From: Nannochloropsis oceanica
Taxonomy: Eukaryota; Sar; Eustigmatophyceae; Eustigmatales; Monodopsidaceae
Length of the DNA: 64,000 bases
Reading direction: 5' to 3'
Assembly: GCA_004519485.1 (NCBI GenBank)
Contig: CP038134.1
Coordinates: 1,214,674-1,278,673, forward strand
Part shown: in pieces, positions 42,201 through 50,098 of the stretch
How positions within the stretch are numbered: position 1 is the stretch's first letter
Layout: every line of letters starts with the position of its first letter
Translations under genes and position numbers: made by a program
The notes under the pieces: generated by a model
What the model was told of the DNA's origin: nothing
Seen by the model: only the letters and a program-made list of their open reading frames with translations
Databases searched by the model: none

Positions 42201-45200
42201 CCTTCCCCCAAGGCCCTCCTGTCCCTGCACGACAAGTGCGTGGGCGTGGTGAACGCCCAATTCGAAAAGAATTCCCTCTTCCACAAGGCGCTCAAGGAGG
42301 CCTTCGTCGAGTTTGTGAACAAGGTACGTCTTCCCTCCCTCTCTCCCTCCCTCCCTCCCTCCTTTCCTCCCTCCTTCCCCTCCCCTCGTCCTTCCTCCCC
42401 TCCTTATTCTTTTGTCTCGCTTCCTTTGCCCGGCTTCCATTCATTCTCCCTCCGTCCCTCCGTCCCTCCGTCCCTCCCTTCCGCAGGACGTGGGCAAGTA
42501 CAAGAACGCGGACCTGCTGTCCTCCTTCTGTGACCGGGTGCTTAAGAAGGGCGGGGAGAAGCTCAGCGACACCGAGGTGGAGGATCACTTGGAAAAGGTA
42601 GGGGTGGGAGGAGGGTGGGAGGGTGGCGGTGGCGGACGGCAAATCTCCTCCCTCATGCGTCTCATGTCCCGAGAACTCTTACTTTATCCGTTATCCTGCT
42701 CACCAACGCCCCCTTCCTCCCTCCCTCACCACCTCCCTTTCCAGGTGGTGAATCTGTTCACTTACCTGACGGACAAGGATCTCTTTGCCGAGATCTACCG
42801 CAACCAGCTCGCCAAGCGCCTGCTCAACGCACGGTACGCCCCTCCCTCCCTCCCTCCCTCCCTCCCTCCCTCCCTCCCTCCTTCACCGACGCCAACTTTT
42901 TTTCTCCCGCCCTCCCCCCCCCTCTGCCTCCCTCCCTCGCTGTTCCAGGTCCTCATCGGACGATTGGGAGAAGCTGATGATCGGGAAGCTCAAGCATCGG
43001 TGCGGCGCGCAGTTCACGGGCAAGGTAGGGAGGGAGGGAGGAAGGGAGGGAGGGAAGAGCTGCATGAGGCTGTCAATCTTCCAGAGGAATCCCTCGGGTT
43101 TTTTCTTATCTCTTTTTCCTTCCTTGTCTCCCTCCCTCCCTCCCTCCCTCCCTCCCTCCTTCCCTCCCTAGATGGAAGGGATGTTGAACGACCTGGCCGT
43201 CGGCGTCGACCACCAGAAGGAGTTTCTCGAGCACCTCAAGGTACGATCTTCCTCCTTCCTTTTCTCCCTTCCTCTCTCCCTCCCTCCCTCCCCCCTCAAA
43301 ACAAGTCAAAGCCATCCGGCTTCTGCAGACCTCACCTTCAACCCCTGGACCTAACTCAACATGGACTCACCTCCCTCCCTCCCTCCCTCCCTCCCTCCCT
43401 CCCTTCCCCCCTCAGAGCAAATCATCCAGCGCCGGGGCGGCCTCGGCGGGCGTCTCTCCCCTCGGGCCTGGGAGCAAGATGGCACCCGAGGATTTCTCAG
43501 TCAAGGTCCTGACCACGGGCTACTGGCCATCATATCAGCAGGTAGGGAGGGAGGGAGGGAGGGACGAAGGGAGGGAGGGAGGGAAGAGTCTCTGAATGTA
43601 ACTTTCCCCCCCCTACACTTCCCTCCTCCCCACCCCCCGCCCACCCACACGCACCTCCTCGCTCTCACCTGCCTCCCAAACTCTTACATCCACCCACCCT
43701 CCGCGCAACACACCCACCCACCCACATATCCGCCCATCCATCCACCCGCCCACCCACACGCACCCTACACACTTGCAGATGGACGTCCGACTCCCCGATG
43801 AGATGCTGCGCTGCACCCAGGTACCTCCCTCCTTCCCTCCCTCCCTCCTTCCCTCCCCCTTCAATCACCCCTTCCCCCCGTCCCTCCATCCCTCCCTCTT
43901 CCCCTCCGCAGGCATTTAGGGCATGGTATGACCTCAAGAACCAGCGGCGGCGCCTGGCCTGGCAGCACGCCTTGGGCTCGGCCACCCTTCGCGCCAAATT
44001 TGGCGCGAAGACGTACGACTTGCAGACCAACACGTTGCAGGTAGAGAGGGAAGGAGGGGAAGGAAGGAGGGGAAGGAAGGAGGGATGGAGAGTCGATCGA
44101 AGTTGAGAAGTAGAATCTAATCAATATGTCCATCCATCCCGCCCTCCCTCGGTACCTCCTTCCCTCCGTCCCTCCCTTCCAGGCCGTGCTCCTCCTCTCC
44201 TTCCAGTCCGAGGGCGAGTCACTGGATTTCTCCACCCTGAAAGAACGCCTGAACGTGCCCGTGGAACAGATGAAGCCCCTCCTCCACTCTCTGTCCTGCG
44301 GCAAGTACAAGGTATGACGCTAGATGGGGAGGGAGCGAGGGAAGGCGGGAGGAATTGACTCGGGCTCGTCTCTCCTGAAATGATAGCTCTTATTGAATTG
44401 CACGGGATTTGGTCACGAAACTTTGGACTCTGGTAGGAATGACGACCCTCCTGCCCTCCCCTCCCTCCCTCCCTCCCTCCCCCCTTCTCCTCAGGTGCTG
44501 AGGAAGTCCCCCGCCTCGGACAAGATCAAAGAGACGGACTCCTTCGCGGTCCACACCGGCTTCTCCTGCCCCCAGCGCGTCATCCGCATCCCCATGGCCA
44601 CGATCGAAGAGAGCCACAACCCCAACAGGGTCGAGGTAGGGAGGGAGGGAGGGAGGGAGGGAGGGAGGGTACCGTAGGAGTAGCAGTCTGCTTTTTCCGT
44701 GTAGTGCTGGCCACGGAAGACTTCGGGCGCGAGGTAGTAGGCGTTGCCCGTGCACTGGGTCATGAAGCTGAGGGAGGGAGGGAGGGAGGGAGGGAGGGAA
44801 GGAAGGAGGGAGGACACAGGAGGTGCCTGCAAAGTTTTCCTGGGCTTGGCTTTGGTTACCATCCCTTGTTCTCTCCTTTCACTCTCTCATTCTCATCCTC
44901 ATTTCCCCTTGACTCTCATGTTTCTTTATCACTCTTGTTGTTATAGGAGGATCGCTCCATCGCCATCGAGGCCGCCATCGTCCGCATCATGAAGGCCCGC
45001 AAGGTACGTCATACTCCCTCCCTTCCTCCCTCCCTCCCTCCCTGCCTCCACCCCTTTCGCTTCCTCTATTCTGCGAGGCTTCCTGTCTGATTTCTCTCTC
45101 GCTCAGACACACCCTTCTCTCGCCATCTTCATGACCCTTTTTCCTTCCTCGGACTTTTCCCCCAACCACCTTCCAAACTCCCTCCCACCTCCTCTCCTCC

Positions 45201-48631: not shown

Positions 48632-50098
48632 TTACTCTCCCGCTCTGCTCACATCCATGAAATCCACCAAGGTGAGCACCCGACTTAAGATTCCGGCGCA
48701 CTTAATCCTCAGCCTTGCCAGCGCACACTCGGCCTCCCACACCCTGTCCACCTTCTCAAAAGGGGGACCCCTGTCATCCTTTCGTTCCTGTTGCTGGTCG
48801 AGTTGGTGCTGGAGCTGCTGCTGCTTCTCCTCCTGGCCGTGGGAGTGCGGATATAAGGTGCCCTCTCCTCCCAAAGCGGCCACAGGCAACGCCGTGGAGG
48901 AGCTGGAGGAATTTCGATGGAAACAAACAGGGGCGACTGGACCATCAGCAGCAGCAGCAGCAGTGGCCAAAAACGGTGCCTTAAACACAGCTGACTGGGG
49001 GGAGGGAGGGAGGGATGGCGCGAGGGCGGAGGAGGCTGCCTTGGACGTAATGCAGCTAGTTGGCGCGACCTTGTGGACCGAGGTCGTCGATGAGTATAGG
49101 CGGGTGCGGCATGCCTCCTCACTCCCTTTATCAACGTGTCTCCCTCCCAGCATTTCTAACCCTTCGTCTCGTCCTTTTCCTGTCACATACAAAGAGGAGG
49201 AGGAGGAGGAGGAGTTCAACTGGGTCAGACAAGGTTCACCGTCAAGTCCCCCTACTGGCTGATGATGCTGCATATTGGATTGGAAATTGTTGCGGAGGTG
49301 GGCGGCCTGTTGGAGGGCTTGCTTCATCTGCAGGCATACGTCGTGGAGCCACATGACTTGGGCCTCGTTTACGCGGGACCGTCGCAGGTGCATGGAGAGA
49401 CCGCCCATGATAGGGAGGGTGAGGACGTCACGAGGGGCGTGGAGGAAGTGGGGGGGAATGGCGTCGGTGGATATGTCGATCAGGGTCCGCGCAGGAAGGA
49501 TACGTCGGAGCTTGTGGCGGGCGTTGTCGATGATGGCCTCCTCCCTAAGGTCGCGGCGCACGGCTACCATGACCCCTCGGAAATCCTTCATTGATTTGTT
49601 CTCAAAGGTCAATTCTTTTATGAACTGGGGAAGGGAGAGCGCCTCAGGGATGACATGGAGGAGGAGCAAGGAGGTGCTGACGGAGACGATGGCCGTAGCC
49701 CACTTGGTGAAGAGGATGACGTTAGTGGGCAGGTTGAGCATATTGAAGAGGTGCGTGAGGCCGCAGAGGAGGATGAAGGAGATGAAGAGCGCCCCGGTGA
49801 ACCAGAAGCGGGGGTGCAGGTGCATCATGTGCCTGCCGAGGGTAATGAGAGAGGAAAAGGGATGAAAGTAGCAATAAGATAGGTGGAAGGGTGTATATAG
49901 CAGGCGACACCCTTTCTCGGCACGCCCGAACGCTTGCCCTCCTTCCCCTCCCTCCCCCCCTCCTTCTCTCCCTTCCACAGGCACGCACCGACGACGCAGC
50001 AAGTACATGGTAATCTCCACGGGAATGAAAAAGTAGGCAATGGCAATGACCAAGTCGGCCGTGCTCATGGCGCTCACGCCTGAGCCATCGATGCGCAT
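48632..50098 (-). CDS. Ethylene-receptor-like membrane protein lacking a kinase
   Basis: Two exons, 49989-50098 and 48632-49832, give 436 residues. The N-terminal three-helix domain matches the copper-dependent ethylene-binding domain of plant ETR1/ERS receptors. Helix 1 is DLVIAIAYFFIPVEITMYLL. Helix 2 holds FILLCGLTHLFN, with the Cu(I)-binding Cys and His (ETR1 C65 and H69). Helix 3 is TKWATAIVSVSTSLLLLHVI followed by PEAL. The following 150 residues align loosely with the GAF region. The final residues (ILSRVLTLVDFMDVSRAGE) resemble the second helix of a histidine-kinase dimerisation domain (plants: LMNDVLDLSRLEDG). A poly-Gln/Ser/Ala stretch replaces the first helix and its phospho-acceptor histidine, and there is no ATPase or receiver domain before the stop. 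The protein is probably in the endoplasmic reticulum or another endomembrane, as in plants (inference). Confidence 0.88.
   Translation of the reverse strand: MRIDGSGVSAMSTADLVIAIAYFFIPVEITMYLLRRRCVPVEGREGGGEGGEGGQAFGRAEKGCRLLYTPFHLSYCYFHPFSSLITLGRHMMHLHPRFWFTGALFISFILLCGLTHLFNMLNLPTNVILFTKWATAIVSVSTSLLLLHVIPEALSLPQFIKELTFENKSMKDFRGVMVAVRRDLREEAIIDNARHKLRRILPARTLIDISTDAIPPHFLHAPRDVLTLPIMGGLSMHLRRSRVNEAQVMWLHDVCLQMKQALQQAAHLRNNFQSNMQHHQPVGGLDGEPCLTQLNSSSSSSSLYVTGKGRDEGLEMLGGRHVDKGSEEACRTRLYSSTTSVHKVAPTSCITSKAASSALAPSLPPSPQSAVFKAPFLATAAAAADGPVAPVCFHRNSSSSSTALPVAALGGEGTLYPHSHGQEEKQQQLQHQLDQQQERKDDRGPPFEKVDRVWEAECALARLRIKCAGILSRVLTLVDFMDVSRAGE

Follow-up and report, generated by a model that had tools for sequence, protein, structure and literature searches.

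The features considered here lie in a 64,000-nt window of the Nannochloropsis oceanica genome (C8:1214674-1278673, contig CP038134.1), in which all positions below are counted; the genome searched comprised 29.26 Mb in 32 contigs. On the minus strand of the window, an open reading frame (ORF) of 488 codons at 48632-50098, located exactly as in an initial annotation, encodes a protein with an N-terminal ethylene-binding domain (EBD) and no detected histidine kinase. Specifically, the Pfam profile ETR1_N (PF25487) matched the unspliced ORF in two stretches (E 2.5e-15, 57 bits in all), between which lies a 156-nt segment (49833-49988, -) bordered by GTGCGT...GGCAG. This segment is probably a GT-AG intron, as its removal yields a 436-aa protein in which the ETR1_N match is single and continuous (E 6.7e-18; 65.2 bits against a curated cut-off of 27; residues 11-104, profile positions 6-97). 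The predicted intron is in frame and stop-free, and hence the initial annotation saw a single ORF; that open frame is real, but 52 residues of its translation are probably not protein. The resulting gene model has an exon 1 (49989-50098, -) with the start codon, a short Cys-free N-terminus, and a first transmembrane (TM) helix carrying D15, Y22, I25, and P26, and an exon 2 (48632-49832, -) that includes the stop codon (48632-48634). Codon-usage scoring of the frames was uninformative, because exon 2 scored below some other frames even where it certainly encodes EBD. Searched by sequence against the PDB, the unspliced ORF had no match at E<=1, and neither an NCBIfam search nor a viral scan with the ORF translation returned any.

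The EBD (49631-50068, -; interrupted by the predicted intron) contains all three of the hydrophobic regions above the threshold used, in line with three TM helices, and FILLCGLTHLFN is present, with C60 and H64 (49751-49765, -) aligning with ETR1 C65 and H69, which ligate Cu(I). The initial annotation had proposed such a three-helix domain with its Cys/His pair, and the profile search it suggested as a check bears out the domain. We aligned the algal EBD with 32 bacterial rows (loci L024-L055; 31 distinct genes, as L024 and L026 are the identical gene) and an ETR1 sequence. In this alignment, the algal protein keeps D15, Y22, I25, P26, F56, I57, C60, H64, and K80, the counterparts of ETR1 D25, Y32, I35, P36, F61, I62, C65, H69, and K91. 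Of these, D25, Y32, I35, P36, I62, C65, and H69 make up what we take to be the set that ethylene binding requires, and 7/7 are thereby retained. Among the bacterial rows, the Cys and the His are each found in 32/32, the Asp in 30/32 (Asn in the other two), and the Lys in 26/32. Earlier studies describe C65 and H69 as the copper site and I35, P36, and I62 as essential (PMC6586836), give roles for Asp25, Cys65, and His69 (PMC12643061), report mutants of Y32, F61, I62, C65, and H69 (PMC8879215), and predict a D25-K91 bond, with K91 involved in receptor output (PMC11819568). Judged by these conserved positions, the algal EBD may bind Cu(I) and ethylene. It is about equally distant from ETR1 (37/86 identical) and from the bacterial EBDs (30-40 identical per 81-92 aligned residues, about 35-49%). 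Its TM1-TM2 loop is longer by about five residues (HMMHL, 49817-49831, -), immediately past the splice site; that these might contact Cu(I) is speculation. The gene appears to be single-copy, as ETR1_N matched the whole genome only twice, in the two exons described here. The ORF protein had six weak matches elsewhere in its own genome (E 2.1e-4 to 0.0099, 18.3-24.1 bits), and ETR1_N matched at none of the six.

Downstream of the EBD, an AlphaFold single-sequence model places a compact, GAF-like region at about residues 125-215 (49298-49570, -), a predicted fold with which VIA-align rows agree; Pfam gave no match to this region, and Foldseek alone was not significant. Compared pairwise with ETR1, the post-EBD region as a whole did not stand out, since 237 and 331 of 1000 shuffles scored as well. 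The exit helix ends in RNNFQSNMQHH (residues 217-227; 49262-49294, -), a stretch picked by eye beforehand. It was equalled against ETR1 by 17/1000 shuffles, and a home-made HisKA profile aligned H226 with the phospho-acceptor His at -0.1 bits, a score exceeded in 5/200 shuffles. We regard this stretch as a weak look-alike of an H-box, at the level of a motif, which the initial annotation had missed. The latter described the phospho-acceptor helix as replaced by a Gln/Ser/Ala stretch; a Ser/Ala/Pro/Gln-rich low-complexity stretch does exist (residues 237-369; 48836-49234, -; unstructured in the model), but it is preceded by the H-box-like R217-H227. The protein ends in two predicted helices (residues 370-388 and 394-428, or 333-351 and 357-391 in the numbering of model P0003; 48659-48835, -), modelled with a block pLDDT (predicted local distance difference test score) of 52-72. 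A relic of the second dimerisation helix had also been proposed, at residues 413-433 (48644-48706, -). It is marginal and near chance, was missed by the home-made HisKA profile, and is not claimed here, because its significance varies with the target chosen (equalled by 27 or by 75 of 1000 shuffles).

No parts of a histidine kinase were detected in the protein or around its gene. Pfam found no HisKA match in the spliced protein at E<=10 and neither HATPase_c nor a receiver. In profile searches of the genome, for which only the best candidates were scored, contig C8 gave no match to HATPase_c, HisKA, or receiver at E<=1. Further, the whole window, searched as 2027 six-frame fragments with home-made profiles, gave nothing convincing for either ATPase (profile from 7 sequences; best E 2.4) or HisKA (profile from 9; best E 1.2), and ten open minus-strand fragments downstream of the ORF contained no kinase domain of this type. 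As a control, the same profiles recovered the kinase on contig C4 of the same genome (ATPase 5.6e-15 to 1.8e-28, HisKA about 6e-14), the domains of which are split across several open frames; the matches of the two profiles to the kinase on C1 (6.8e-47 for ATPase) are circular, because segments of that kinase were included in both profiles. These results agree with the earlier claims of a sensor lacking histidine kinase and receiver and of no ATPase domain in the downstream minus-strand sequence. Nor was a histidine-kinase domain detected in the window that could belong to an adjacent kinase gene, as in split EBD/kinase systems. Taken together, the initial observation is confirmed, from the ORF and its ETR1_N match to the retained Cys/His pair and the lack of detected kinase parts, and its interpretation is supported in part. 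We file the algal protein as an EBD-family protein rather than an ethylene-receptor histidine kinase. A Pkinase exon at 44494-44886 (-) was considered as an output domain and rejected, being a 33-residue piece with 24.5 bits (cut-off 31.7) that lies 3.7 kb away; open fragments near it had no DFG or HRD-type motif. This piece (GNAYYLAPEVF...) sits opposite a plus-strand cullin gene, whose pieces fall between 42319 and 45388.

The detected two-component set of the genome is small. Profile matches numbered 13 for HATPase_c, 3 for HisKA, and 5 for receiver, and HPt had a single match. The HATPase_c matches fall at 11 places, only two of which, on C1 and C4, are histidine kinases, both apparently hybrid. 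An orphan ATPase subunit elsewhere was rejected, as the nine remaining places were, by eye, GyrB, PDK/BCKDK-like (three), Hsp90-like (three), MORC-like, and topoisomerase II. Two other receivers occur, one on C4 within a protein-kinase frame and one within a frame on C16, with a further match on C10 below the cut-off in an anthranilate-synthase-like frame; the HisKA match on C15 was sub-threshold (19.2 bits). By eye, the N-termini of the hybrid kinases (C1:459234-463982 and C4:192164-197716) are hydrophobic and multi-TM-like, and their kinase domains contain low-complexity insertions. Also by eye, a serine/threonine-kinase-like frame on C4 (L019, C4:918074-921409) has a receiver domain between its catalytic parts.

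Kinase-less EBDs also occur in bacteria and phages. Of 146 genomes sampled in one bacterial phylum (that of G001), 44 had an EBD match, and five matches lay in open frames of <250 aa, three of which (L064, L063, and L048) were inspected. In one genome (G042; L064 1666-3934, +), a 193-aa EBD protein is followed 4 bp later by a 560-aa PAS/HisKA/HATPase protein; in another (G017; L063 765-2616, -), a 196-aa EBD protein has an 11-bp overlap with a 423-aa HisKA/HATPase protein. Both stand-alone proteins carry an EBD and a coiled coil, and they are apparently halves of split ethylene receptors. The split form looks rare, since a search with the 193-aa protein across 59 genomes around and including G042 gave 36 matches in 19 genomes, of which 34, all outside G042 and G017, lay in longer frames (>=389 aa). 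The third locus (L048 638-1866, -) shows, by eye, a 203-aa EBD frame and then a separate GGDEF-like frame, and may be a broken receptor-cyclase gene. On a 65-kb IMG/VR viral contig (L095 2860-3384, +), a 174-aa kinase-less EBD protein (ETR1_N 95.6 bits, scanned from residue 16) is flanked by a frame >=970 aa long and by one that weakly matches Rz-spanin (E 0.096); a second viral hit was L096. Among 50,697 phage records, eight had an EBD match at E<=1e-3, all of them Maribacter phages, with RefSeq duplicates counted; Molly_1 alone was scanned with Pfam. Its gene 65 (Molly1_65; L097 1932-2801, +), immediately upstream of an amidase gene, encodes a 289-aa 'hypothetical protein' that is a kinase-less EBD protein (60.9 bits). 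Across the four kinase-less EBDs compared, bacterial and viral or phage, D25 is Asn in 4/4 and K91 is kept in 0/4, unlike in the algal protein, which keeps both.

The algal protein can be set against several known systems. With plant ETR1/ERS1, it shares the three-TM EBD with its essential residues, an adjacent GAF-like region, and a possible H-box remnant, but it lacks a detected HisKA, ATPase, or receiver and the N-terminal Cys pair, and its GAF-like part spans about 90 aa compared with approximately 150 aa in ETR1/ERS1. A receiver is absent from ERS types as well. Cyanobacterial EBD proteins (such as SynEtr1 and GeiEtr1, PMC6682694; loci L024-L055), whose EBDs are about 35-49% identical to the algal one, have PAS, GAF, kinase, or GGDEF parts in those inspected by eye, with many rows ending at locus borders. 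The stand-alone EBDs of L063 and L064 are, like the algal protein, without a kinase in the same polypeptide, yet they differ in having a kinase gene directly adjacent, a coiled coil instead of a GAF, and Asn for D25. Another parallel is Arabidopsis etr1(1-349), a receptor N-terminus without its kinase that can still signal (PMC4238421); that fragment was engineered by truncation and is no natural gene.

One potential explanation, to which we would give a probability of roughly 40%, is that this single-copy gene encodes a kinase-less ethylene-sensor protein that signals through a partner in trans. As part of the same joint reading, its domains would follow in the order of a three-helix Cu(I)/ethylene-binding domain, a GAF-like domain, an exit helix with the H-box look-alike, a disordered linker, and a helical tail. 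An EBD dimer would bind Cu(I) and ethylene, the resulting change would be relayed via the GAF-like domain and the exit helix, and the helical tail, for want of an ATPase in the protein itself, would couple to a partner in trans. The simplest such partner would be one of the two hybrid histidine kinases, together with the single detected HPt protein. We favor a hybrid kinase because the adjacent, separate genes in bacteria suggest that fusion of an EBD with its kinase is not required; by analogy, the two bacterial genomes with stand-alone EBD and kinase genes offer a possible precedent for action in trans. Dimerisation, coupling in trans, and the identity of the partner are steps that we infer.

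Alternatively, the protein could signal from its N-terminal part independently of any histidine kinase, as etr1(1-349) does in Arabidopsis, where RTE1 aids it. We hold this to be rather unlikely, even though the algal domain content (EBD, GAF-like region, no kinase) matches that fragment, whose signalling is described in PMC4238421, and the D25/K91 pair linked to output (PMC11819568) is kept; this route has no known downstream partner. It cannot be separated here from the route through a hybrid kinase. A serious rival to both, and an unlikely but not negligible one, is that the gene is an evolutionary relic. In this reading, a hybrid receptor would have lost its kinase in the past and be in decay, with no more than the ORF retained. 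Several observations speak for decay: the GAF-like region is shortened, the H-box is weak, the low-complexity stretch has expanded, and the EBD is divergent, with alignment scores of 106-153 against the 32 bacterial rows compared with 167-227 for ETR1 against the same rows. However, the 488-codon ORF has stayed open, and the binding residues and splice sites are intact in spite of this divergence, which suggests selection.

A different use of the EBD fold, for copper or another small ligand, as may occur in phages, seems quite improbable. Such a task would fit the kinase-less EBDs that the viral contig and the Maribacter phages encode close to tail and lysis-type genes, as well as the extra HMMHL in the TM1-TM2 loop, but the algal protein retains D25 and K91, which the viral and phage ones lack, and the Maribacter one has also lost P36. 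Very improbable, finally, is an incomplete gene model, in which splicing joins the ORF to a kinase exon or a break in the assembly falls at this place. A donor-like GTGAGC does lie in the last codons (48647-48652, -) and is a possible alternative donor. Nevertheless, no ATPase or HisKA match was found on the contig or in the window, while the independent control on C4 was, and the ten downstream minus-strand fragments hold no kinase domain of this type; at the sensitivity used, we reject a missing downstream kinase exon.

Varied domain arrangements have been described for ethylene-receptor homologues of stramenopiles and their relatives (PMC7700396 and PMC6944256), with outputs that the former considers possibly broad and lacking functional study. 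This gene was not named in the titles and abstract openings of the papers listed from the open-licence literature on Nannochloropsis and stramenopile ethylene receptors or stand-alone EBDs; it extends the list of such homologues in these lineages. With the usual signalling enzyme missing beside an intact-looking gas-binding part, how the signal is passed on becomes the question. It is a doubtful proposition, although conceivable, that this is a naturally evolved, kinase-free stramenopile ethylene receptor, a natural counterpart of etr1(1-349) in which an EBD and a compact GAF signal via a separate partner. PMC4238421 (2014) describes signalling by the ethylene-receptor N-terminus without the kinase as unresolved in plants. 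Candidate partners in the alga are few, as the searches of its genome detected no more than two histidine kinases and one HPt, and a single-copy, kinase-less EBD gene in so small a genome would make the question of N-terminal signalling testable.
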